Positions 44,638 through 56,833 of a stretch of 64,000 nucleotides of DNA are shown here, one piece after another (positions within the stretch are counted from its first letter, which is position 1; each line of letters opens with the position of its first letter). The notes under the pieces were generated by a model. It did not search any database. It saw nothing but the letters and a program-made list of their open reading frames with translations, and was not told the origin of the DNA. This DNA comes from Bradyrhizobium sp. NAS80.1. GTDB taxonomy: Bacteria; Pseudomonadota; Alphaproteobacteria; Rhizobiales; Xanthobacteraceae. The stretch spans positions 1-64,000 of the forward strand of contig NZ_LGHL01000065.1 of assembly GCF_001908205.1 (NCBI RefSeq), written 5' to 3'. Position numbers and translations under genes: made by a program.

Positions 44638-45885
44638 TCAGCCGAACAAGGACGACCCGAGCAGGGCGAGGACGGCGAACGCCATCAGCGCGGTGCCGAG
44701 CCAGCCCAGCGCGATCAGCCATGAGCGAGCCCTGAAGCGGCCCATGATGGCGGCGCTCGAGACGATCAGCATCATCATCGCCATGAGGGGAACGGCGACG
44801 ATGCCGTTGAGCACCGCGCTCCACACCAGCATGCGGATCGAGTCGATCCCGGTGAAGCCGAGACCGAAGCCGATGATGGTCGCTGCAGCGATGATAGTAT
44901 AGAAGCCGACCGCCTTCTCGGGCTTGGCTTCCAGCGTAGCGCGCCAGCCGAAAATCTCCGCAACGCCGTAAGCCGCCGAGCCTGCCAGCACCGGGATCGC
45001 CAGGAGGCCGGTGCCGATGATGCCGAGCGCGAACAGCGCGAAGGTGAAGTCGCCGGCGAGCGGCCGCAGCGCTTCGGCGGCTTCCGTTGCCGAATTGATG
45101 TTGGTAACGCCATTTGCGTTCAGCACCGCCGCCGTGGTCAGGATGATGAAGAAGGCGATGCAATTGGAGAGCAGCATGCCGACGATGGTGTCGGCCCTGA
45201 TGCGCGCGATTTCGGGATCGCCGCCGCTCTGAAGATCGCGCAGCGGCTTGTCGCGCTTGCCCTGGTTCATCTCCTCGACCTCCTGCGAGGCTTGCCAGAA
45301 GAACAGATAGGGGCTGATGGTGGTGCCGAGCACGGCGACGACCATCATGAAATAGTCGGCGCTGACATTCGCCGTCGGCCACACCGCGGCGAGCAGCGCC
45401 GTGCCCCAGGGGATTTCCACGGTGAAGGCGGTCGCGACATAGGCGAACAGCGTCAGCGTCAGGAATTTCAGCACCGGCGCGTAGCGGCGGTAGGGCAGGA
45501 AGACCTGGAGCAGGGTCGAGCCGGCGGCGAAGATCAGCGCATGCTCGTGGTTGAGCCCGCCGATCACCAGCGAGAGCGATTCCGCCATTGCGGCGATGTC
45601 GGCGGCGATGTTGAAGGTGTTGGCTACGACCAGCAGCGAGACCAGCGTCATCACGATCCAGCGCGGCCCGAGCTGCATGACGTTGGCGGCGAGGCCCTTG
45701 CCGGTGACCCGGCCGATCCGCGCGCTCACGAGTTGAATCGCGATCATGAACGGCAGGGTCAGAAACACCGTCCACAGCAGCCCGAAGTCGAATTGCGCGC
45801 CGGCCTGCGAATAGGTGGCGATGCCCGACGGATCGTCGTCCGCCGCGCCGGTGATGAGGCCGGGACCAAGCCGCTGCAGCAGCAT
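44638..45885 (-). CDS. Nramp-related divalent metal transporter, non-canonical
   Basis: 415 residues with about eleven membrane helices. The first helix carries the metal-site motif as AADDDPSGIATY, where classic Nramp proteins have DPGN. The sixth-helix region reads TTISPYLFFWQASQEVEE, where classic members have a Met-Pro-His motif. These changes put it among Nramp-like proteins with altered metal selectivity (perhaps Mg2+ or another ion). The ATG at 45885 leaves a short cytoplasmic N-terminus; a longer form has no clear start. Confidence 0.85.
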   Translation of the reverse strand: MLLQRLGPGLITGAADDDPSGIATYSQAGAQFDFGLLWTVFLTLPFMIAIQLVSARIGRVTGKGLAANVMQLGPRWIVMTLVSLLVVANTFNIAADIAAMAESLSLVIGGLNHEHALIFAAGSTLLQVFLPYRRYAPVLKFLTLTLFAYVATAFTVEIPWGTALLAAVWPTANVSADYFMMVVAVLGTTISPYLFFWQASQEVEEMNQGKRDKPLRDLQSGGDPEIARIRADTIVGMLLSNCIAFFIILTTAAVLNANGVTNINSATEAAEALRPLAGDFTFALFALGIIGTGLLAIPVLAGSAAYGVAEIFGWRATLEAKPEKAVGFYTIIAAATIIGFGLGFTGIDSIRMLVWSAVLNGIVAVPLMAMMMLIVSSAAIMGRFRARSWLIALGWLGTALMAFAVLALLGSSLFG

Positions 45886-46256
45886 CGGCCTGAACTTCGT
45901 CGGCGCGTCGGAGCGGTCGTGCTTGGCCGGGCGGTGTTGTGATCGGGTCGACAGGGCTGATCTTCCGGAATTGCGAATTTACGCTTCAATTGCGATCATC
46001 GCTGCAAAGTTCCATCGGCGGCGAGCGTCGCGCCGTCTGCTGAAGCGGCACGGTCCGTCATGCGTTTGGCACGTCGGGCAAAACACCAGTAGATTTCTAC
46101 CATCACAGAACTCGTCGAGCCCGCACTGTCACCGGCCACGCACCGGTCGCGGGCTTTTCTTTTGCGGTTGCCTGGCTCCACCTTGAACGAGTCTCGCGCC
46201 CTTGGGCGGGCGCGTGAAGCCCTTGCATACAGCACGTTGAGATTGTAGGGAGCGGC
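45886..46256. other. Intergenic region with repeat copy A
   Basis: This 371-base gap holds the first copy of the GTTTGAC-type repeat (46064-46162) and the leader of the damaged dioxygenase gene. No gene is supported; overlapping minus-strand frames are shadows. Confidence 0.4.
46064..46162 (+). repeat. GTTTGAC-CGTCGGGCAAAACACC repeat, copy A
   Basis: The head GTTTGGCACGTCGGGCAAAA is followed 40 bases later by a terminator-like stem AGCCCGC...GCGGGCTTTTCTTTT. The head differs from the consensus by TTTGGCA in place of TTTGACA. Confidence 0.7.
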
Positions 46257-46926
46257 ATGAGCCTTTGCGTGCCGCCCACCAAAGTCGATGCGCTGAACGC
46301 GGAAGAGGCTGCCGTCCTCGACCGCGATGGCTATCTCCTGCTGCGGGGCGTCGTCCCCGCGGCGTGGCGCGATGCGCTGCGAGCCGCCTTCGATGCCGGC
46401 GTGGGGACCTTGGATCAATGGGCCGCCCCGCGCGGCGCCGGCTGGCGCCACGCCCTCGTCGATCTGGATCCGACAGTGCAGCGAACCTGCCGCCTGCCGC
46501 CGCTGCTGGCGGCGGCCGCGCAGATGCTGGGCGGTCCGTTCTTTCTCTGCCAGGTCGAGGGCCGCGAGCCGCTGCAGGGCGGCGGCCACCAGCCCCTGCA
46601 TCGCGATGGCGCAGGCATGAAAGCCGTCGCCGCCCTGGTCTTCCTCGACGGCTTACGGGCCGGACAACGGCGCCACGCGTATCGTTCCGCGTCATCTCGA
46701 CGGCGGCGAGCCGGACGAGACCCTGTCCCTGACGACGGCGGGCGAGGCGGGGGACATCCTGGTGTTCGACGCCGATCTGCCGCACGGTGCGACCTGCAAT
46801 CACTCCGGCGCGCGGCGGCGCTCGCTGCTGCTGAGCTTCATGCAGGAAGGCAATCGCGCGAGCATGGAGGCCTGCCGCGCCATTCGCAACGTGCGCATGG
46901 ACACCGGCGAGGTGTTCATCCCCTGA
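46257..46926 (+). pseudogene. Frameshifted phytanoyl-CoA dioxygenase family gene
   Basis: The first frame ([20 protein letters not shown] to [20 protein letters not shown]) carries the HxD iron ligands. At about 46650-46654 the reading frame must shift by one for the homologous sequence to continue: [20 protein letters not shown], then the distal histidine in [14 protein letters not shown], and [13 protein letters not shown] with the stop at 46926. All iron ligands are present once the shift is corrected, so it is a recent inactivation or a sequencing error. The product would be an Fe(II)/2-oxoglutarate dioxygenase. Confidence 0.8.
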
Positions 46927-46999
46927 GAGACGTAGGACTTCATCGGCAGCAAGGAACGAGCAAGGCGGAGGGAAGTTTGTTCGCCAGGAGGAAACACCG

Positions 47000-47245
47000 A
47001 TGAAAGCGACAGCTCTTGTTTTGGCCGTCCTGCTCGCCATCCCCGCCGGCAACGCCTCGGCCCATAGCGCCAAGCGACACCATCATGGCTGGTGGAATTC
47101 GATGAACATGATGCATGGCCCCGGCCGCACCGCCGCGCGAACCGATCCGAACGGGACGGCCAGGGGCCCGACGAGCGTCAGCGGTACCGGCCCGTCGAAG
47201 TTCGGCGGCCAGATTCCGGGATCGAGCGGCGCTAGCCGGCAGTAG
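47000..47245 (+). CDS. Small secreted hypothetical protein
   Basis: 81 residues: signal peptide ([20 protein letters not shown], cleavage near ASA/HS), then a His/Trp-rich start ([17 protein letters not shown]) and a Gly/Ser/Pro-rich tail. GGAGG precedes the ATG. Function unknown. Confidence 0.65.
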
Positions 47246-47302
47246 GCCTGGCGGAAGCTTGAACGATGCCGCTCGGCCTCGAGTTGGGGCCGGGCTGTCG
47301 TC

Positions 47303-47488
47303 CTACTTGATGCTGACGAACATGCCCCAGGCGGCGGCGAGCGCCGCGCCGGAAAAGACGATCATCGGGTTTTCGCAGAACGAGCTGCCATAGGTGCACA
47401 TGGTGACACCGAACGAGCCGATCTCGTGCTGGCTCGCGGAGTAGAACAGTCCCGACAGCACCAGCAATGCAGCGGCGACGTAGTACAT
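47303..47488 (-). CDS. Small two-helix membrane protein
   Basis: 61 residues with two membrane helices (YYVAAALLVLSGLFYSASQH and MIVFSGAALAAAWGMFVSIK) joined by a loop with two cysteines. GGAGAG precedes the ATG. Conserved-looking but unnamed. Confidence 0.65.
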   Translation of the reverse strand: MYYVAAALLVLSGLFYSASQHEIGSFGVTMCTYGSSFCENPMIVFSGAALAAAWGMFVSIK

Positions 47489-47597
47489 CGGTCATCTCTC
47501 CGAAATTGTCCCGATTGCGTCTGCGCAAGGGGCATGTCCCAGCATGGCGCGAAGAGATTTCATTTCGCCAAATTGGCTTCGCTGCATTTTAGATAAA

Positions 47598-47631
47598 GTT
47601 TGACCCGTCGGGCAAAACACCGATCTGATGG
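47598..47631 (+). repeat. GTTTGAC-CGTCGGGCAAAACACC repeat, copy B
   Basis: GTTTGACCCGTCGGGCAAAA then CACCGATCTGATGG. No terminator stem follows, so this is a head-only copy. Confidence 0.75.
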
Positions 47632-47944
47632 CAGCAGGCGTCCCTCGCGAAAGCCGGTTTCGGGTCGCTAGAAGCGGACGAAACACTGGACGGCTTCTTT
47701 CTCTTTCGGCTGGCTATGTGCGACTGGCGGCGGTTAGAAGCAGAACAAGGGCGCGAGGTATGGGGACCAAGCGCCCTTGCACGCCCAATCGTCGGTTGCC
47801 CTGAGTGTGAGTTCTTGGGGATCGCGGGGCAACCCACGAACGCCGGCTACCGGGACGAATCACTACCTCATGCTGTTGTCATGATTGCGGCGCTTTTCGA
47901 TTTTGGCACAAACTGCACATCACCGTGGTCCGATCGGGGAGTAC

Positions 47945-47977
47945 TGTTCGACCGACGGGCGAAACACCGCGTGATGG
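47945..47977 (+). repeat. GTTTGAC-CGTCGGGCAAAACACC repeat, copy C (diverged)
   Basis: TGTTCGACCGACGGGCGAAA then CACCGCGTGATGG. Several substitutions, and no terminator stem follows. Confidence 0.6.
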
Positions 47978-48022
47978 TTGTTGTTCCTCACAGCGGTCCT
48001 CGTTCTGATGTTTTGACAGAAC

Positions 48023-48361
48023 ATGCGCGATCCGCATGCGGTTGCGACTATCGTTGATGTGTTGCGGCGGGCCTACGGCGACAGCCATGCACGCCTGCTT
48101 CTCCGCGATGGCATAAGCGTCGAGGCACTGATCGATGCGCTGCTGTCCGCCCCGCTGAGCGAACGTGATGTGGCGCGGCTGATAACCGTCGCGCTGGAGT
48201 CGGGCGACTTCGAGATGACGCCGGATTTCACCACGCGTCCTTCGCATCTGAAGTTTATCTACGATCCGCCAAACTCACTGCGGGTGGTCGACATCGTCAT
48301 GCTGACGGAATCGCGCGCATTTTCGAGCGCCGATATCTGGCTGCGTCTGCGGGACGTCTAG
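48023..48361 (+). CDS. Hypothetical protein
   Basis: 112 residues, soluble and mixed alpha/beta (ATIVDVLRRAYGDSHARLLL, SERDVARLITVALESGDFEM, SLRVVDIVMLTESRAFSSAD). No family recognised. It reads as one intact frame among small accessory genes. Confidence 0.55.
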   Translation: MRDPHAVATIVDVLRRAYGDSHARLLLRDGISVEALIDALLSAPLSERDVARLITVALESGDFEMTPDFTTRPSHLKFIYDPPNSLRVVDIVMLTESRAFSSADIWLRLRDV

Positions 48362-48473
48362 CCCGCCGGGCCCTGCACGGAAGCGTTCACGTTCGGTCTC
48401 GAGGCCGCCACTGGCCGATGGAAGGTCATGGCGGCGGTCCTTCCCATGGCAGCTAGTGGACCCGATACGGACT

Positions 48474-48998
48474 TCAGCGGTCGGTCTCAGTCTCGGCAGT
48501 GTCCGTCCAGACTGCATTGAGCGCGAGTACGAAGACCGTTGCCCCACAGCCCAGAGTCCAGGTTGCGGCGACAGCTATCGGTCCAATCGTCGGTCGATGC
48601 GGAAACCCGGCGGCGTTGCTGACGAGCGCGACGACGACGAGCATCGAGACTGAGACGATTGGCATCCAGCGAGCGCACGGCACCGGGCCCGCCATGATGG
48701 CAGCGCGACGCATTGGATAGGTCGCGCCGAAGCAGAGGAATACCGTTGCAATGATTGCGCTTGAGATACGCCAAACCGCGGTCTCAGTCAGGCCGCAAAG
48801 TGCCAACAATGGAGGCAACATGCAGAATGCCGCCGAGAAGAGTCCAGACTCCAGGTACAATCGGGTCAGAACAAGGTGGAAGCCCGATATATCGTGTCCA
48901 GTCGTTTGACGCAGGACGATGACGATTGCGCAGAAGCCGGCAAATGTCATTGCCAGAGTCGCAAGCGTGTACAGATATGCCGATCCAAGTAGTTCCAT
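48474..48998 (-). CDS. Hypothetical integral membrane protein
   Basis: 174 residues with five hydrophobic segments (SAYLYTLATLAMTFAGFCAI; CMLPPLLALCGL; AIIATVFLCFGATYP; IVSVSMLVVVALVSNAAG; GCGATVFVLALNAVW). GGGGAG precedes the ATG at 48998. Function unknown. Confidence 0.65.
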   Translation of the reverse strand: MELLGSAYLYTLATLAMTFAGFCAIVIVLRQTTGHDISGFHLVLTRLYLESGLFSAAFCMLPPLLALCGLTETAVWRISSAIIATVFLCFGATYPMRRAAIMAGPVPCARWMPIVSVSMLVVVALVSNAAGFPHRPTIGPIAVAATWTLGCGATVFVLALNAVWTDTAETETDR

Positions 48999-49062
48999 CG
49001 TTTCCACTCCCCGTCTCAAATTAGGATCGCGAAGGCAAACCGCTTGATGGGGGAGATCTCAG

Positions 49063-49225
49063 ATGAAGACCAAGACGCCGCAACAGACGGTCACCTTCAA
49101 GGCTTCACCACGCCAAGTGTACGACATGCTGATGGTTTCGAGGAAGCATCAGTCGTTGTCGGGGCAGCCCGCAAAAATCGGCCGCAACGTCGGCGGAAAT
49201 TTACAGCCTGGGATTCGCACACCTC
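49063..49225 (+). pseudogene. Decayed SRPBCC (AHSA1-like) gene
   Basis: An ATG preceded by GGGGGAG opens MKTKTPQQTVTFKASPRQVY, the typical start of an AHSA1/SRPBCC ligand-binding protein (a ~150-residue fold). After IGRNVGG a one-base loss at about 49195 shifts the frame; KFTAWDSHT continues the family sequence in the next frame, after which homology stops. Only about a third of the domain remains. The next 160 bases show nothing I can identify. Confidence 0.65.
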
Positions 49226-49387
49226 GGCGCTGCTCCAGCATGCCCGCCTCACTCGAAGTTCACGCGGCATCAAGCACTGCTTCGTGTCGAGTATAGTTTC
49301 TAGAAGCTGCTTGCGAAACGTCTGCTTGGGCCCTTGGCGGACGCCGCGTCGATTCCGCTCGATCACTGCTTCTGATCCGAGCTGTGG

Positions 49388-49705
49388 GTGGGGGCAGTCG
49401 TGCTCGGCACGATGGGATTTGGCGTGGGAGCGCTTCTTGCCGCGCGGGTGAGAGCCATGCCGGGTTTGGCAGATTGCCAGAGCCTCTTGCGTCTGTTGAT
49501 CGCAAGGGGAGATCCGAAAGCGATCCCGCTCGCGGAAGGCGCCATCGATCAATATCTGAACATCACGCCGGTCAGCGCCCGCGGGCGCGGCCTGCGCGTG
49601 CTCCAGCGCGATGCGCTCGACCAGCACATTGCCGCGGTCGGCGTGCAGCGCTCGTTCGCCGAGACGGTGGACGCCTACATCGCGCGGAAGCTTGCGGAAG
49701 AGTGA
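49388..49705 (+). CDS. Small protein with N-terminal membrane helix
   Basis: 105 residues from a GTG. A glycine-rich membrane helix (VVLGTMGFGVGALLAARVRA) is followed by a soluble part with ALDQHIAAVGVQRSFAETVD. No ribosome binding site is obvious. It may be a truncated gene at the edge of decayed DNA. No family recognised. Confidence 0.42.
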   Translation: MGAVVLGTMGFGVGALLAARVRAMPGLADCQSLLRLLIARGDPKAIPLAEGAIDQYLNITPVSARGRGLRVLQRDALDQHIAAVGVQRSFAETVDAYIARKLAEE

Positions 49706-49803
49706 CGTGCGCGTCCTCGCCCCGGCTGTAATCCAGTTCACAAGGCCGATCCTGCTGGTGCCGCTAGGTTCGCGCGCCCCTCAGGCGCACGCTGGAGCTG
49801 CCG

Positions 49804-49962
49804 ATGATGACTGCACTTGCAAAGGCAATGTCCCGCGCAACGGGAGCCAACGTTGAGGTCGAAACGCTTAAAGTGCTGGTGACCTTCTCGGGGGCGGGCC
49901 TGCTGCTCTGCCTCGTGGCCGCGATGATCTACGCAACATATCTCGGCGTTGCGCTGGACTGA
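49804..49962 (+). CDS. Small single-helix membrane protein
   Basis: 52 residues: MMTALAKAMSRATGANVEVE, then a membrane helix (LVTFSGAGLLLCLVAAMIYA) and a short tail LGVALD. GGAG lies nine bases upstream of the ATG. No family recognised. Confidence 0.55.
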   Translation: MMTALAKAMSRATGANVEVETLKVLVTFSGAGLLLCLVAAMIYATYLGVALD

Positions 49963-50060
49963 CTTCCGCTCGGCGAGCTGCTGCGCATCTGCTGGCGCTC
50001 CGCTGTTTACTCCTTCTCGCCCGCTGAACCGGACGATGGCGACGAGGCCATGCGACGCGA

Positions 50061-50543
50061 TCAGTCCGGGAGTTTCAGGTGCAGGAATTGATTGAAGGCG
50101 CTCGGCTCGTAATCGGCGAAGGCCTCCCCGTTCACGAATCCATACTTGCGGTAGAGCGCCAGCGCCGGTTCGAACGCCGGGCCGCTTCCGGTCTCGAGGC
50201 TCAGCCGGGTCAGCCGGCGCGCTTTGGCCTCGCGGGCGATGTGGTCCAGCAGCAGCACCGCGACGCCCCGGCGCAGATGATCGGGATGAGTCCGCATCGA
50301 CTTCACCTCGGCGCTGCCGTCGCCCAGCTCCTTCAGCGCGCCGATGCCGATCACCTCAAGGCCGTCGCGCACCGACCAGACCGTGACGCCTGGGGCTTTC
50401 AGCCCGGAGAGGTCGAGCGCGAATACGCTGCCGGGCGGCGAGTTCGCGCGCATGCCGGCGAGGTGCACTGCGAGGAGGCGGCGGGTCGGCTCGCCGGTGA
50501 GGTCGTCGACGTGGATTTCGAACATGGGCTGGCTAGGGCTCAT
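50061..50543 (-). CDS. GNAT family N-acetyltransferase
   Basis: 160 residues. Acetyl-CoA binding motif SMRTHPDHLRRGVAVLLLDH near residue 90, then RLSLETGSGPAFEPALALYR and the usual C-terminal YGFVNGEAFADY. The acetyl acceptor is unknown. The ATG at 50543 is used; a second ATG at 50525 is possible. Confidence 0.88.
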   Translation of the reverse strand: MSPSQPMFEIHVDDLTGEPTRRLLAVHLAGMRANSPPGSVFALDLSGLKAPGVTVWSVRDGLEVIGIGALKELGDGSAEVKSMRTHPDHLRRGVAVLLLDHIAREAKARRLTRLSLETGSGPAFEPALALYRKYGFVNGEAFADYEPSAFNQFLHLKLPD

Positions 50544-50586
50544 TGAAGCCGCTCGGGAATAATCTTGTGGCCATTTGACGAGCCCA

Positions 50587-50847
50587 CTAAGGAGAAAATT
50601 TAAGCCCACATCTTATGCTGCGGTGTTTGTGATCTATCCGCTCGGATACGCGGTCCACGAATGCATGCACCTTGGTGTAGGCTCGCAACGCTCGTCGGTC
50701 GTCATACAGTTTGCATACATGCATCACTTGACTGCGATATTCACCGTTGAAGCCACTTAGATCGGCCAGTGCCCCACTGTAAAAGGACAAAGCGTCGTCT
50801 TTAGCCTTGCCTGCTTTGGCTTTGTATGTGGGCCGTCGTAATCGCAT
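50587..50847 (-). CDS. HEPN-like protein fragment
   Basis: 86 residues. The stretch FNGEYRSQVMHVCKLYDDRR contains R-x4-H (RSQVMH) on a predicted helix, the signature of HEPN-type domains, then ALRAYTKVHAFVDRVSERID. Family members I recall are longer, with this part at the C-terminus, so it looks like a 3' remnant or a small stand-alone HEPN protein. Composition is more AT-rich than neighbours, suggesting transfer. No toxin/antitoxin partner is visible beside it. Confidence 0.45.
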   Translation of the reverse strand: MRLRRPTYKAKAGKAKDDALSFYSGALADLSGFNGEYRSQVMHVCKLYDDRRALRAYTKVHAFVDRVSERIDHKHRSIRCGLKFSP

Positions 50848-51004
50848 TGAAATTCATCATGCGAACTTTTTCCCAATGCAACTCACCGTCGCACCACGGG
50901 TATGCGAAGTACTCCGTAGATGACCAGACCTGACACGTTTTTTTGCTATCTTGACTCATTGTTCATGTTTTGTTCTTATTCGTCATCTTCGAATGGAGAT
51001 GGCT

Positions 51005-51286
51005 ATGGACAACCGCATCAGTGAAATCCGCAGAATAATCAGAGCCTTACGCGTGAGTATGCTGGAGGCGGAGGCCATCATGCGCGAGCAGATCAACCGG
51101 GATGAGGACTGCGTCTTCGTGGCGGAGGAGGTCATGAAGATGCGCTCCGTCATGAGCCATCTTGCCCAGGAACGGACGACGCTTGGAGACACGGATCCCA
51201 TCCTCGTCAAAAGCTTCTTCGTTCAGCGCCGGCTTTCGGCACAGAAGCCGGAAGCCCGGCCGCTCAAGCTCGTCGGGAGGCTCTGA
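51005..51286 (+). CDS. Small hypothetical protein
   Basis: 93 residues, mostly helical and charged (ISEIRRIIRALRVSMLEAEA, CVFVAEEVMKMRSVMSHLAQ). GGAG stands eight bases before the ATG at 51005. It precedes another small gene by two bases, so they form a pair. Confidence 0.62.
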   Translation: MDNRISEIRRIIRALRVSMLEAEAIMREQINRDEDCVFVAEEVMKMRSVMSHLAQERTTLGDTDPILVKSFFVQRRLSAQKPEARPLKLVGRL

Positions 51287-51288
51287 TC

Positions 51289-51492
51289 GTGAAGGAGAGG
51301 CCGAAATGGTTTTCCGACAGCAACGATCACCCCGAGTTCATCAAGGCGTTGGACAAGGCGAGACGGCTCTCTTGTCATGAGGGCTGGTGTCGAGCGCACA
51401 TCGAGGCCATCCAGGTTGCGATCGATCAATACGCCGAAGCTGCCTATGGCAATCGGGAGTTCTTCCTGAACAAGCCGCACAGCGTCGGTTAG
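51289..51492 (+). CDS. Small hypothetical protein
   Basis: 67 residues from a GTG with GGGAGG upstream. Contains CHEGWCRAHIEAIQVAIDQY and ends AYGNREFFLNKPHSVG. Cotranscribed with the preceding gene. No family recognised. Confidence 0.62.
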   Translation: MKERPKWFSDSNDHPEFIKALDKARRLSCHEGWCRAHIEAIQVAIDQYAEAAYGNREFFLNKPHSVG

Positions 51493-51645
51493 CGAACCGA
51501 TGGCGCCGTAGGAACTTTCAGCTTCAACCTCGAATTTGCTACGTGGCCGGTCTACCGTCGATTGACCGGCCTGAAATGACGGCTCCGGCGCGCCGAGCCC
51601 CCCGTCTCGCGCCGGGGCCGTTTCCGCTATTCAATGTTTGATTGA

Positions 51646-51740
51646 GTTTGACTCGTCGGGCAACACACCGGCATGATGGCATCGTCGAAAGAGTTCGGTT
51701 CAGCCCGCGTGGAGCAATCCGCCGCGGGCTTTTGATTTTC
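51646..51740 (+). repeat. GTTTGAC-CGTCGGGCAAAACACC repeat, copy D
   Basis: Head GTTTGACTCGTCGGGCAACA, then ACCGGCATGATGGCATCGTC and GTTCGGTTCAGCCCGC, ending in the stem AGCCCGCGTGGA...TCCGCCGCGGGCTTTTGATTTT, a terminator-like element reading on the plus strand. Confidence 0.8.
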
Positions 51741-51761
51741 GCCTTTGCGTCCAACCTGCAA

Positions 51762-53288
51762 CTACGCCGCGTCAGCCTGCCCGAACCATTTGGTCAGCGC
51801 CTCCATAAGTCCGCGCTGGCTCGCGTCTCCGACCCAAGCCACGTGCCCATCTGGCCGCACAAGCACGGCTTCGGGCGCCGCGACGTGCCCGATGGCCGGA
51901 AGCTCCCACGGGCCGTCGTAATCGGCGTCGATGCATCTGACACGATCCGCCCAGGGCGCGATGTTGACGCGGCCGGGCTTGCCGAAATTGAGCAGCAAAC
52001 CTCGCGCACCGTGCAGCAATGTGAATAGCCTTTCGGGGCGGCCCTCGACCGTCAGGTCGAGATCGGGCATGCGGCGTCCAAGCAGCTGATGTCCTTCGCC
52101 AAGATCGTATTGAATGTCGAGCCCGGACATCATTGCGCCAAAGCCCTTGCGTGGCTCGTCCATGCCGAGCAGTTCGGAGACGACGTCACGCGCGGCCTTG
52201 AGGCCGTCGTCGGCACGGCGGAGCAGGGCGATCTGCGCCATGGTGTTGCGCAGCACGCGCGCTGCGACGGGATGGCGCTCGGCGTGGTAGGTGTCGAGCA
52301 GGCTGTCGGGCGAAATGCCCTTGACCACCAGCGCCAGCTTCCAGCCGAGATTGACGGCGTCCTGCACGCCGGTGTTGAGGCCTTGCCCGCCCACGGAGTG
52401 ATGGACATGCGCAGCGTCGCCGGCGAGCAGCACGCGCCCGGCGCGATAGGACGCAGCCTGCAGGCTGACGTCGGTGAAACGGGAGATGAAGGACGGGGTG
52501 TGGAGTCCATAGTCTGTGCCGTACACGGCGATGAGCGCGTCGCTGAGATCGCGCAGCGTAGTTTCGCCGGTACGGTCGAGTGTCCGCTCCGTCACGAGGA
52601 CCCGCACGCGTCCGTTCTCCGATTTGCTGAGGCCATGAAAGCCGAGTGCGTCGTGACGCAGACCCCATGCGGGCTCCCCGGTCATCTCGACCTCGGCCAT
52701 GAGGTTGCTGAGCGTGGGATCGGAGCCGGCAAAGTCGATGCCGGCGGTCTTACGCACCAGGCTGCGACCGCCGTCGCAGCCGACGAGGTAATTTGCCCGC
52801 AACGTCTTGCCGCCGGACACCGCGACGTCGATGCCGGTGTCGTCCTGAACGAAGCCCGTCACCTCGGACTTGCGATAGACCGGCACCGCGAGCTCCTCGA
52901 CCCAGGCGGCCAGGATGCGCTCGATGTGGCCTTGCCACAGCGCGAGCCCGTAATTATGCCGGGTGGGCAGATCGCTGATGTCGAGCCTGGTCCAGGCAAA
53001 GCCGGCGAGCTGGGCAATCTGCCCTTCTCGCAGGAAACGATCCGCGACGCCGCGCTGATCGAGGATCTCGATGGTACGCGCATGTAATCCGCCGGCGCGC
53101 GTGCCGACGAGCTCCTGGTTGGCGCGTCGCTCGACAATCGCGACGTCGACATGCGCAAGAGCCAGCTCCGCGGCCAGCATCAGGCCGCTGGGCCCGCCGC
53201 CGGCAATGACGACCTCATGGTCGGTGGCTGCCGCGCGTTCTGCGCTCGCCCGGTCGCGCGACCGGGACGTGGGAACCAATACTGGCAT
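51762..53288 (-). CDS. FAD-dependent aromatic/antibiotic monooxygenase
   Basis: 508 residues of the p-hydroxybenzoate hydroxylase-type group. FAD-binding VVIAGGGPSGLMLAAELALA near residue 26, the DG motif NYLVGCDGGRSLVRKTAG near 167, and the GD motif RVLLAGDAAHVHHSVGGQGL near 282. The C-terminal thioredoxin-like extension (residues about 385-508) is typical of rifampicin monooxygenase and polyketide hydroxylases. Substrate unknown. GAGAGG precedes the ATG at 53288. Confidence 0.9.
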   Translation of the reverse strand: MPVLVPTSRSRDRASAERAAATDHEVVIAGGGPSGLMLAAELALAHVDVAIVERRANQELVGTRAGGLHARTIEILDQRGVADRFLREGQIAQLAGFAWTRLDISDLPTRHNYGLALWQGHIERILAAWVEELAVPVYRKSEVTGFVQDDTGIDVAVSGGKTLRANYLVGCDGGRSLVRKTAGIDFAGSDPTLSNLMAEVEMTGEPAWGLRHDALGFHGLSKSENGRVRVLVTERTLDRTGETTLRDLSDALIAVYGTDYGLHTPSFISRFTDVSLQAASYRAGRVLLAGDAAHVHHSVGGQGLNTGVQDAVNLGWKLALVVKGISPDSLLDTYHAERHPVAARVLRNTMAQIALLRRADDGLKAARDVVSELLGMDEPRKGFGAMMSGLDIQYDLGEGHQLLGRRMPDLDLTVEGRPERLFTLLHGARGLLLNFGKPGRVNIAPWADRVRCIDADYDGPWELPAIGHVAAPEAVLVRPDGHVAWVGDASQRGLMEALTKWFGQADAA

Positions 53289-53426
53289 GTGATGACCTCT
53301 CGACTTATTGCTTTGGTTGGTTTCCTGGGCCGAGGGTTCTACGCGATGGTCGGGGACTTGAAGCAAGCCCGGTGCACGCCACATATCAAGCTGGGAAGAA
53401 GGACTTCTTCTCTAGCGTTCGACGAA

Positions 53427-53520
53427 GTTTGACACGTCGGGCAAAACACTGGCAGAATGGCATCATCGAAACGAGTTTGGTTCAGCCCGCGCGGAACGGT
53501 CCGCGGCGGGCTTTTTCATT
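53427..53520 (+). repeat. GTTTGAC-CGTCGGGCAAAACACC repeat, copy E
   Basis: Head GTTTGACACGTCGGGCAAAA, then CACTGGCAGAATGGCATCAT, CGAAACGAGTTTGGTTCAGC and the terminator-like stem CCGCGCGGA..TCCGCGGCGGGCTTTTT. It is nearly identical to copy F. Confidence 0.85.
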
Positions 53521-53899
53521 TCAACGCCGGATCGGAGTCGGCCTCGAGAGGGCGCTCGGCCGGGTTCATCTCTGTCCATGAAGGATCGCGCGAGCAGCGG
53601 TAATACATCAGCCAGGCATCTGGAATGTCGACACGCCGCACGCGGATCTCCGTCTCCGACACAACCTTGAACTTCGGGTCGCCCGCGATCGGCGTATTGG
53701 GAATCCAGGGCTTGCTGCCGCAGCCAGTGGGATAGCAGAACGTGACCGAGAACTGGCTTGCTTCGGCGCGCGAGACCTTCAGGCCGTAGGCCTTCGCGCA
53801 GTCGCGCTTCCACGCGCCGGAGAAATCCGGAGAGGATTCTTCGGCAACCGCCGGGCGGATCGTGATCATCAGTGAAAGCAGGATACCAAAGAACTTCAT
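53516..53899 (-). CDS. Secreted hypothetical protein
   Basis: 127 residues. Signal peptide (MKFFGILLSLMITIRPAVAE, cleavage near AVA/EE), then FSGAWKRDCAKAYGLKVS and four cysteines in two pairs (DCAK, FCYPTGC, YRC). It is likely a disulfide-bonded periplasmic protein. Its 3' end overlaps the tail of repeat copy E. Function unknown. Confidence 0.68.
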   Translation of the reverse strand: MKFFGILLSLMITIRPAVAEESSPDFSGAWKRDCAKAYGLKVSRAEASQFSVTFCYPTGCGSKPWIPNTPIAGDPKFKVVSETEIRVRRVDIPDAWLMYYRCSRDPSWTEMNPAERPLEADSDPALK

Positions 53900-54386
53900 C
53901 GGCGAACTCCTGACGCGGCTCCGATTCCGGGATGACGTGCCTTGCGCACGGTTGATGCCGCGATCGGAAGCTATGCTAAGGCAATATGCCCTTTGCTAGC
54001 GTGATCGCCGGCACATTGCGATCACGGTGATGAGCGATCCCGTTGCAAACTTGGTTTGACACGTCGGGCAAAACACCGGCAGAATGACATCATCGAGACG
54101 AGTTTGGTTCACCCGCGCGGAGAGCATCCGCCGCGGGTTTTTTTCGTTCTCGATTCCAGAATCGGACGGTGGCCGCGCATCCGGCCATGCACTCGCTGAA
54201 CATGGAGCGCCGATCGGCGCGCAGCAGTCCGAACCATTGATGGCCGTGCACGCGCGAACGTGCCTCGCGGCGCGAGCCCGTTGCTCGCGCCGCTGCGGTC
54301 TCCGAGAACGGAGATAGGGTTCGCGCCCGAAACGATCGCGCTTTGTCACGCGATTTGCCGCGTATTTTCTTTTTCGTGGAGAGTCG
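53900..54386. other. Intergenic region with repeat copy F
   Basis: These 487 bases hold repeat copy F (54054-54146). The rest shows no gene I can support; a 132-codon minus-strand frame crosses the repeat and is a shadow. GGAGAG at about 54378 serves the next small gene. Confidence 0.4.
54054..54146 (+). repeat. GTTTGAC-CGTCGGGCAAAACACC repeat, copy F
   Basis: Head GTTTGACACGTCGGGCAAAA, then CACCGGCAGAATGACATCAT, CGAGACGAGTTTGGTTCACC and the stem CCGCGCGGAGAGCATCCGCC GCGGGTTTTTTT. The strongest terminator-like tail of the six copies. Confidence 0.85.
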
Positions 54387-54834: not shown

Positions 54835-55544
54835 GCTTCTCATGGCGGCGACGCCGCAACGCGCCCGATCAAGATCGTTCCTCGCCAATGAGCCGTTGCA
54901 TGTACAGAATTCGTATCGTCGATGCATCTGATGATGACGTCGCCGACAACTTGGCCGATCTGCACCAGCTGACGTTCTTCGATGCCGCGGCTATGCCGCA
55001 GTTCGACTTTGGAGCGCGGTGGCTAGCCTATAACGGCAATAACGCGGTCGCGTTTGCGGGTGTTGTGCCGTCGACGCATGCGCGGAACAGCGGGTACTTT
55101 TCAAGGGTCGGGGTCTTGCAGCGGCATTGGGGGCAGGGACTGCAACTCAGGCTGATGCGGGCGGTCGAGGCGCGGGGGCGGCGTATTGGATGGGACAGCA
55201 TTGTCTCCGGCACGACGGACAATCCGGTGGTTGTAAATTTCATCCTGGCGGGCTATCGGCTCAACCAACCCGAGGTACCCTGGGCTTGGTCGCATGGCTA
55301 TATTGGCGAAGGTCCCTTCGCTGAGCAATGCGAGCAGGTTTCCCGTGATGCGGAACGTGACTTTCGCAAATTAGAACGGCGCGCGAGACGTGGCGCAGCT
55401 TCAGAAGCCCCAGAACGCTCAACGGCCCGGCACCTTGATGGCTGCCGGGTCGTTTTTCCATTTCAGGTGAGGTTCGTGAAGCACTTGCGAAGTTGGCGGT
55501 GCCGGGCTTTAAGTTTGCTCCTGCAGGAAATTCGGCGACCATAA
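54831..55544 (+). CDS. GNAT-like acetyltransferase, possibly with a read-through tail
   Basis: 237 residues from a GTG overlapping the previous stop. Residues about 20-170 look like a GNAT domain (ARNSGYFSRVGVLQRHWGQG, the acetyl-CoA loop, then VVNFILAGYRLNQPEVPWAW). After about residue 190 the sequence is unlike any domain and crosses a terminator-like hairpin at 55422-55456, so the natural C-terminus may have been lost by a frame change. An ATG at 54888 is an alternative start. Confidence 0.65.
   Translation: MSFSWRRRRNAPDQDRSSPMSRCMYRIRIVDASDDDVADNLADLHQLTFFDAAAMPQFDFGARWLAYNGNNAVAFAGVVPSTHARNSGYFSRVGVLQRHWGQGLQLRLMRAVEARGRRIGWDSIVSGTTDNPVVVNFILAGYRLNQPEVPWAWSHGYIGEGPFAEQCEQVSRDAERDFRKLERRARRGAASEAPERSTARHLDGCRVVFPFQVRFVKHLRSWRCRALSLLLQEIRRP
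55422..55456 (+). terminator. Terminator-like hairpin inside the GNAT reading frame
   Basis: ACGGCCCGGCA and TGCCGGGTCGT form a stem of about ten pairs around CCTTGATGGC, followed by TTTTT. It lies before the apparent stop of the GNAT frame. Confidence 0.65.
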
Positions 55545-55567
55545 GCCGATGTAAGGGAGCGCTGTCG

Positions 55568-56833
55568 ATGTCCACCAAGCCTCAATTGCCGGAACGTTCG
55601 TCGCGGGCGACGGGAAGGCCGACTGCACTCGATGGTCTTCTCGTCGTCGACTTTACGCGCGTCGTGGCGGGGCCAGCCTGCACGCAGACCCTTGCCGATT
55701 TTGGCGCGCGCGTCATCAAGATCGAAAATCCGGACGGTGGCGACGACACGCGCGCCTATGAGCATGCCGAAATCGGCGGCGAAAGCGCGGCCTATCTCAG
55801 CCTGAACCGCAACAAGCGAGGCATTGCTCTCGACCTTGCCGTGCCGGAGGCCCGCGAGATCGCGCTGGATCTGATCCGTAAGGCGGATGTGGTCGTGGAA
55901 AATTTTTCGAGCGGGGTCATGAAGAAATTCGGCCTCGACTATGAGGCTGTCGCGCCTCTCAACCCGCGTCTGGTCTATTGCTCGATCTCCGCTTATGGAC
56001 GGACCGGCCCGTTCGCCTCGCGCCCCGGCTTCGACCCCATCACCCAGGCAGAAAGCGGCTTCATGTCGCTCAACGGGTTTGCCGATGGCCCGGCGGTTCG
56101 TACCGGCCCACCCATCGTGGACATGGCGACAGGGATGTCTGCCTGCAACGCCATCCTGCTGGCGCTATTGGCGCGGGATCGGCTCGGCCGCGGACAGCAT
56201 GTCGAAGTCGCCCTGTTCGACATCGCCATGGCGATGACCGGCTTCTACGGCATGGCCTATCTGATCAACGGCGAGAACCCTGGCCGGTTCGGCAATTCGC
56301 CGAGCGGGTCTCCCACGGTCGGCGTCTATGAGGCCTCCGATGGGCCGCTTTACATGGCCTGCGCGAACGACCGGCTCTATCGCCGGCTGGTGGTCGAGGT
56401 GCTGAACCGGCCCGACCTGATCGCCGATCCGCAGTTCGCCACGCGCAAGGCGCGCTCCGAGAACAAGGAACTCTTGCGTGCGGCCATCGCGGAGGTCTTC
56501 GCGAGCGATACCCTCGAGAACTGGATGGCGAAGATGAAGCTGGCCAATATTCCAGTCGGTTATCTCCGGACGGTCGAGGAGGGCTTCAACGCGCCGGAGG
56601 CGCGTCAGCGCCACCGCCTGAGCAGGATTCCGCATCCTACGGCGGACTGGGTCCCCAATATCGAGACCCCGATTACCATGAGCCTGACCGGCGCGATTGA
56701 TCCCGTTGCCGCACCTCTGCTCGGCGAGCATACCGAGAATGTCTTACGCGACACACTTGGTTACGACGAGCGTCAGATCACGGAGCTTGCCCAAAAGGGA
56801 GTCTTTGGATCAGGCAAGCCTTCGCCGGCTTGA
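55568..56833 (+). CDS. Class III (CaiB/BaiF) CoA-transferase
   Basis: 421 residues. The N-terminus (LLVVDFTRVVAGPACTQTLA), IKIENPDGGDDTR, YLSLNRNKRGIALDL and the catalytic aspartate in GPPIVDMATGMSACN match formyl-CoA/succinyl-CoA transferases. It activates an organic acid by CoA transfer. AAGGGAG precedes the ATG at 55568. It opens a run of catabolic genes; the acid could be the substrate or product of the monooxygenase downstream. Confidence 0.93.
   Translation: MSTKPQLPERSSRATGRPTALDGLLVVDFTRVVAGPACTQTLADFGARVIKIENPDGGDDTRAYEHAEIGGESAAYLSLNRNKRGIALDLAVPEAREIALDLIRKADVVVENFSSGVMKKFGLDYEAVAPLNPRLVYCSISAYGRTGPFASRPGFDPITQAESGFMSLNGFADGPAVRTGPPIVDMATGMSACNAILLALLARDRLGRGQHVEVALFDIAMAMTGFYGMAYLINGENPGRFGNSPSGSPTVGVYEASDGPLYMACANDRLYRRLVVEVLNRPDLIADPQFATRKARSENKELLRAAIAEVFASDTLENWMAKMKLANIPVGYLRTVEEGFNAPEARQRHRLSRIPHPTADWVPNIETPITMSLTGAIDPVAAPLLGEHTENVLRDTLGYDERQITELAQKGVFGSGKPSPA

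Follow-up and report, generated by a model that had tools for sequence, protein, structure and literature searches.

The window analyzed here, a stretch of 64,000 nucleotides of Bradyrhizobium sp. NAS80.1 (contig NZ_LGHL01000065.1, positions 1 to 64,000), carries within about 8 kb six copies of a short intergenic element, labeled A to F in the order in which they lie, each opening with the same promoter-like head. A search with CGTCGGGCAAAACACC allowing up to 3 mismatches yields exactly six matches in the 64 kb, all on the forward strand, at 46072, 47606, 47953, 51654, 53435 and 54062, the heads starting 8 bases 5' of these positions; none of 100 shuffled controls reached six matches (mean 0.70, maximum 3). 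This confirms the six same-orientation heads listed in a first-pass annotation made from the letters of the window, which had also described a GC stem and T-run after four of them, as indeed found: a test for a hairpin plus T-run was passed after A, D, E and F and failed after B and C. The former four probably encode RNAs of about 50 nt each; B and C are degenerate copies.

The intact units share one layout. Unit A (46064-46163, forward strand) shows a -35 element TTGGC at 46066, the core CGTCGGGCAAAACA at 46072-46085 and a -10 element TAGATT at 46090-46095, with a predicted start near 46102 and a terminator hairpin at about 46117-46156. Unit D (51646-51737, forward) has TTGAC at 51648, the core with one mismatch at 51654-51667, CATGAT at 51672-51677, a predicted start near 51684 and a hairpin at about 51702-51730. 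Unit E (53427-53520, forward) follows with TTGAC at 53429, the core at 53435-53448, CAGAAT at 53453-53458, a start predicted near 53465 and a hairpin at about 53484-53512, and unit F (54054-54156, forward) with TTGAC at 54056, the core at 54062-54075, CAGAAT at 54080-54085, a start predicted near 54092 and a hairpin at about 54111-54138. In the fold of unit F (window 54087-54156) the hairpin and U-run are followed by a 3' arm, 54143-54154, able to pair with the 5' end of the RNA, as it is in many relatives at this site; the folding z-score is -2.64 for the short RNA and -4.55 when the 3' arm is included. Copy B (47598-47621, forward) consists of the head only, TTGACCCGTCGGGCAAAACACC, with a poor -10 and no close terminator; its upstream flank is kept in some relatives, and similar heads lie at 6728136 and 6728672 of USDA 110. 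Copy C (47945-47968, forward) is a weak, degenerate head, TTCGAC-CGACGGGCGAAACACC, with 2 mismatches in the core, a gap between GAC and core that is one base shorter, and likewise no close terminator.

Concerning the head, 207 distinct units (220 before identical ones were merged) show TTGAC, an 18-bp spacer with a near-invariant CGTCGGGCAAAACACYGG, CAnaAT and then GGCATCATCGAAA. At least 80 loci came from a scan with an exact pattern, which biases the letters within that pattern, and the boxes were also read in units chosen otherwise. When terminator units are picked on nothing but the core letters, TTGAC is exact in 153 of 164, and the 39 among these that fall outside the initial exact pattern have it in 34 cases. 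Conservation drops 5' of TTGAC: the best columns there are T 71%, G 51% and C 51% in the 164 units, and T 69%, with all remaining columns at 61% or below, in the 39. For the -10 element, 66 pattern-independent units were used, of which the 56 with a terminator, picked with as many as 3 mismatches allowed in the 20-letter head, a choice that leaves out the -10, show C 94%, A 98%, G 51% or T 33%, A 75%, A 76% and T 94%. The head reads best as a sigma-70 promoter whose transcript is predicted to begin some 7 bases past the -10, near the second A of CATCATCG; a promoter-like element thus stands at the right distance from the start, as expected of a small RNA (sRNA) gene. No conserved promoter was seen upstream of the head in the unit alignments, and therefore the head itself is presumably not transcribed from upstream.

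The units mostly end as an sRNA gene would. A hairpin plus T-run is found in 181 of the 207 distinct units, in most of them 78-84 nt past TTGAC (full range 71-117), and since the hairpin begins about 20 nt past the predicted start, RNAs of about 50 nt, or 45-50 nt, are predicted. One alignment of the family comprises 40 units (three from the window plus 37 of 54 diverse picked units). In the pairing test of the stem 94.6% of cells are paired (0 of 500 shuffles), a percentage that is partly so by construction, the units having been picked for their hairpin. Two-sided changes occur in 19 cells and the covariation score is 0.202, neither equaled in 500 shuffles; they affect 5 of the 11 pairs (18 of 500 shuffles) and bring 14 further pair types (62 of 500). 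The covariance analysis suggested with the first-pass annotation hence came out positive, and an intrinsic terminator with conserved pairing, another feature of sRNA genes, is present in A, D, E and F and absent from B and C. An inverted repeat around the terminator, GAGACG/CGTCTC, is striking at the F site, where its arms have changed in step to GAAACG/CGTTTC in two loci (L104 and L164), as they have in another unit, in L179. This repeat is not family-wide, with a mean duplex energy of -8.2 vs -7.1 for swapped partners (standard deviation 0.14), a difference mostly due to F; the pairing and frame tests omit 3 of the 181 terminator units, whose T-run lies beyond 95.

The array is kept in relatives in a recognizable order: Nramp gene, further on unit D, monooxygenase gene, unit E, variable genes, unit F and a conserved right flank. 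Its left edge is marked by the Nramp transporter gene (44638-45885, reverse strand, PF01566), which some relatives also have beside the array. A flavin adenine dinucleotide (FAD) monooxygenase gene (51762-53384, reverse, PF01494 and PF21274) separates units D and E; its relatives adjoin units in many loci and serve as anchor in 36 of 53. On the right, the array is bounded by a gene at 55493-56833 (forward), which we take from its sequence to be CoA-transferase-like, and which served both in the synteny comparison, as an anchor, and in tree building. By Blast, anchors taken from the window were located in these 53 loci, nearly all of them in Bradyrhizobium records, with 10 of the 53 having a single anchor. 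Next to unit A, a reading frame at 46257-47003, presumably phytanoyl-CoA dioxygenase-like, has no Pfam match and a coding signal that changes frame near its end; its relative in one locus (L100) is an open stretch of 246 codons, and in that locus a unit stands at the same site as unit A, before a phyH-like gene. The record 'Frankia sp. RB7' (L105, L123, L160) also carries units, and the gene of L123 groups inside Bradyrhizobium; the record is probably mislabeled or a mixed assembly.

Across the 53 loci, 182 of 186 units lie in the orientation seen in the window and 4 are opposite (three in L136, one in L180); these 186 units are not independent, as some loci overlap or represent one genome twice (for example L096 with L168/L169, and L100 with L134). 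An 8-kb locus usually holds 2-5 units, and 10 lie in 24.5 kb of one genome (G014). Counting the window copy, the D site is represented by 17 rows, 16 of them with a terminator, the E site by 29 rows and the F site by 35 rows, all 35 with a terminator. Six loci with the AAATCA version of the core (L314-L319), picked because they hold clusters, add 21 units, on one strand per locus and with two or three anchors each: the CoA-transferase-like gene in 3, the small gene g473 in 4 (by blastn/tblastx), Nramp in 3 and part of the F flank in 6. Gene content between the units is variable, which fits the accessory region proposed by the first-pass annotation. Heads are intergenic in 42 of 43 cases in the NAS80.1 genome and in 170 of 173 in relatives, as judged in short loci by a custom codon-based gene caller trained on 20 long open reading frames (ORFs). 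Their orientation to the neighbour genes is not fixed, and occurring in every orientation they are as a rule not promoters of these genes.

Identity of the RNA bodies at the same site is 0.82 for F, 0.70 for D, 0.68 for the unit after F and 0.63 for E, and paralogues within one genome show 0.52-0.68, a margin of no more than 0.013 over paralogues drawn from different genomes. Because same-site bodies are alike and within-genome paralogues are no closer than between-genome ones, the units appear to be inherited in place and not homogenised. In one genome (L315), four tandem units with shared flanks follow each other at 165-166 bp spacing, which looks like a recent tandem duplication.

Outside the window the head is a dispersed element. 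The first-pass annotation had seen no copy elsewhere in the window, which holds there and not for the genome: 40 places match a 23-mer of the head at up to 3 mismatches (23 forward, 17 reverse; 0 for the reversed control), and there are 47 exact CGWCGGGCRAAACA cores. Five of the 47 lie in the window, with 0.33 expected (Poisson P 2e-5, computed after the fact); the window is so a cluster of a dispersed family. That annotation had also held that copies evenly on both strands, lacking transcripts and stem conservation, would speak against it; heads do lie on both strands genome-wide, a count made meaningless by the arbitrary contig orientation of a 532-contig assembly, and the stem is conserved.

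The core occurs in at least three settings. The first is the terminator unit, as in A, D, E and F and in two units on contig 80 (L085). The second setting is a head behind a AACAACCCCATGCAMAGTA repeat, which has 60 places in this genome (for example L001, L002 and L022), some with no head after it, and no match on the window contig among the matches listed; the head follows the repeat at about 65 bp in 27 of the 43 heads of the context table. The third comprises sites with TTGCCCGTCGGGCAA and then AAATATTCCACTTTACCGAAATTCGG, palindromic TTGCCCGTCGGGCAAAACA sites which carry the core with no evident promoter. Palindromic TTGCCCGTCGGGCAAAACACC-like sites (L045, L053, L059, L070, L071 and others), most of them followed by AAATATTCC...TTTACCGAAATTCGG and CCCATCCCGG, form a separate dispersed element that shares the core, and in L255 several cores stand in a row. 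In genomes with the AAATCA core (L249, L250, L258, L259, L268), several of the heads that follow the AACAACCCCATGCAMAGTA repeat have a further 90 or so downstream bases in common, a GC-rich, hairpin-like stretch with an end like GCGATTGCAGGCAAAATCC as judged by eye; such heads may make a longer structured RNA.

Within the genus the head is widespread. A 35-mer of the terminator unit in its AAAACA form was found at no more than 1 mismatch in 126 of 265 Bradyrhizobium genomes. In the rest of the order the head does not rise above the control: 1-2 matches occur in 10 of 288 genomes, vs 8 of 288 for the reversed pattern. In the same draw each of the nine genus genomes, NAS80.1 among them, has 8-46 copies when up to 2 mismatches are allowed.

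The spacer core varies in one letter, and the variants are almost completely sorted by genome. Exact TTGACNCGTCGGGCAAAACA is present in 57 of 117 genus genomes and its AAATCA version in 60 of 117: 51 genomes have only AAAACA, 54 only AAATCA, 6 both and 6 neither. In all 6 mixed genomes one of the forms is a single copy, so that the minority form makes up 6 of 1751 copies in 111 genomes, and exact AAAACA heads range from 0 to 45 per genome. The change covers the array as well as the dispersed heads and, less strictly, the palindromic sites: of 60 genomes, 13 carry AAAACA palindromes, and each of these also has AAAACA heads; the 7 that carry AAATCA palindromes divide into four having AAATCA heads, two having AAAACA heads and one having neither. 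In trees of two flanking genes all AAAACA rows fall on one side with full support (17 vs 3 rows for the CoA-transferase-like gene; 6 vs 3 for Nramp, in whose tree the AAATCA rows do not form a single clade), which suggests that AAAACA was derived once; the trees are small and midpoint-rooted, and include matches of at least 900 bases only.

We infer from this uniformity that a putative DNA-binding factor reads the spacer core. Such a trans-acting factor is preferred over gene conversion because the RNA bodies are not homogenised; conversion as the cause of the uniform core is thus not supported by the bodies, and short conversions limited to the core may still have contributed. The suggestion of a protein-binding array by the first-pass annotation survives for the head core in another sense than was meant, as a probable site in the promoter spacer that is uniform in nearly every genome and differs between species groups. 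Somewhat short of even odds, and put forward tentatively, is the more specific proposal that the core is the site of a putative Bradyrhizobium-specific transcription factor governing the array and the dispersed non-coding promoters, that the AAAACA/AAATCA split would represent one change of its preference with nearly all sites following, and that USDA 110 is maybe in a further change.

Taken together, the data favor the reading, to which we give a probability of roughly 0.7, that the intact units A, D, E and F are free-standing non-coding RNA genes, each with promoter, short RNA and intrinsic terminator, under a core-reading factor. Our best guess is that they encode trans-acting, base-pairing sRNAs with a shared regulator. 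The sigma-70-type promoter (TTGACn, 18-bp spacer, CAnaAT) would fire, with the near-invariant spacer core as operator for a trans-acting factor that serves array and dispersed heads alike. By analogy with sibling sRNAs, the short RNAs could act in trans via their 5' part (AUCGAAA...), and position-specific bodies would give them different targets. New units would arise by local tandem duplication and diverge afterwards, with accessory genes gained and lost in the intervals. Of the three options offered by the first-pass annotation, a small RNA family is the best supported, considering the promoter-like head and the covarying terminator stem. A mobile terminator finds no support, mobility as such having been little probed: the sites of units D, E and F are occupied in many species, and a terminator follows only 10 of 47 distinct heads of the NAS80.1 genome.

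Several observations weigh against the proposal of RNA genes. The RNAs are a prediction from DNA sequence. The spacer is conserved as strongly as the promoter boxes, which ordinary promoters do not need, and the middle of the RNA is highly variable; the target of selection may be the DNA site instead of the RNA. By the same hairpin test, 37 of the 47 distinct heads of the NAS80.1 genome are without a terminator, and at the E site only 22 of the 29 rows end in one. In AAATCA genomes, as judged by eye, the -10 often ends in C and some units are without a terminator. The 5' mini-hairpin visible in D, E and F is family-wide barely above chance (mean -1.42 vs -1.21, standard deviation 0.08). Same-site identity at E (0.63) is lower than the E-F paralogue value (0.68), which leaves F and D as the only sites whose bodies are clearly site-specific. 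USDA 110 has a mixed set of 15 AAAACA and 14 AAGACA heads, which strict co-evolution does not expect, AAGACA being a third core state and two of its 14 heads lying in the array. Finally, a de novo motif search on USDA 110 start sites found only RpoD-like and RpoN-like motifs conserved, in the portion of PMC4842269 drawn on here.

The main rival, which we consider unlikely, assigns the role to the DNA: the core CGTCGGGCAAA(A/T)CA would be bound by a genus-specific protein for a chromosomal task such as folding, partition or recombination, promoter and terminator being incidental. Such a role would account for the recurrence of the core in the three settings above, for the heads that have no terminator, and for a core that is near-uniform per genome in a spacer more conserved than the RNA body; it leaves unexplained the promoter spacing of TTGAC and CAnaAT and the terminator in most units, and no strand pattern is evident by eye in the USDA 110 chromosome (21 heads forward, 32 reverse). 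The dispersal of the head, with up to 45 exact AAAACA copies in a genome, and the four evenly spaced tandem units also call to mind a selfish mobile element, like a miniature inverted-repeat transposable element (MITE) or a REPIN, that ends by chance in a terminator. We find this improbable: there is little conservation before TTGAC, the D, E and F sites are occupied in many species, the strand bias is 182:4, and within-genome paralogues are no closer than those between genomes, unlike what recent transposition leaves. The terminal inverted repeats that MITEs or REPINs carry in all copies are clear only at the F site and in a few units.

Two further explanations would tie the units to protein genes. 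That they are ordinary terminators of neighbour genes with a conserved decoration would agree with the good terminators ending A, D, E and F, and is very improbable for elements that have a promoter-like head of their own and lie in every orientation to their neighbours. This variable orientation is also hard to reconcile with the reading to which we give the lowest credence of all, namely short leader ORFs (ATG GCA TCA TCG ...) with an attenuator-like terminator. An NTG does overlap the -10 in most AAAACA-type units (T 94%, G 80%), and the frame in the window begins MTSS in F and MASS in D and E; NTG is nevertheless absent from many AAATCA-type units, no ribosome-binding site is apparent by eye, and body length favors none of the three frames (67/64/47, chi-square P 0.14), with no conserved reading frame as a small leader ORF would have.

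If the RNA gene interpretation is true, a large soil and nodule genus possesses a conserved multi-gene array of very short RNAs, matching no Rfam family, together with genome-wide sets of matched sites, few to 45 in number, which within a genome nearly all share the same one-letter state; this would be a natural record of a regulator and many sites changing together. Among the 4227 families of Rfam none exceeds its gathering threshold in the window, and under relaxed settings two appear below threshold, with E values of 0.18 and 0.21. Unit D with its flanks matched no phage record and unit E with its flanks no plasmid record. GTCGGGCAAATC was found in open-licence PubMed Central (PMC) text only in two papers whose titles, the part considered, concern Neisseria pili and Borrelia detection, GTCGGGCAAAAC and the two complements had no match in that text, and no such array is described in titles or abstract openings among the matches listed. 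Mobile promoters are a class in which the same promoter sequence lies at many places of one genome; the array units differ in being at fixed sites across species and in every orientation to neighbour genes.

Within Bradyrhizobium, RpoD-like promoters of USDA 110 are described as TTG-N16-18-TATA (PMC4842269), and the head resembles them in having -35 and -10 elements with 18-bp spacing and differs in a -10 that starts with C and a near-invariant spacer. The orphan sRNAs BjsR1-BjsR10 of USDA 110, some with 2-4 imperfect copies (PMC5082802), are alike in genus and in this copying; as candidates for identity they were rejected, since the 14 published start-site windows (nine of the ten families, BjsR8 left out) carry no core at up to 2 mismatches in the genome taken as USDA 110 (G077). 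The same source describes Br-REP1 and Br-REP2, Bradyrhizobium repeats that share with the units an intergenic location and stem-loops, with a consensus of their own; at up to 3 mismatches there is no Br-REP1 in the window and no Br-REP2 inside the units, the first 17 letters of the Br-REP2 element lying outside them, at 47209 and 5785.

The closest parallel is with sibling sRNAs such as AbcR, Qrr, PrrF and csRNA, reviewed in PMC4211561. In both cases several related short RNAs occur per genome, some in tandem, and members may differ in their targets; two or more related sRNA genes per genome, here as predicted genes, are what makes siblings. Table rows of that review give 2-6 members, vs usually 2-5 units per 8-kb locus here and 10 in G014. 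Sequence comparison of the units with AbcR is that made through the Rfam scans. The Bradyrhizobium units differ from these sibling sRNAs in lying between accessory genes, in a predicted length of only about 50 nt, and in having the promoter spacer as their most conserved part.

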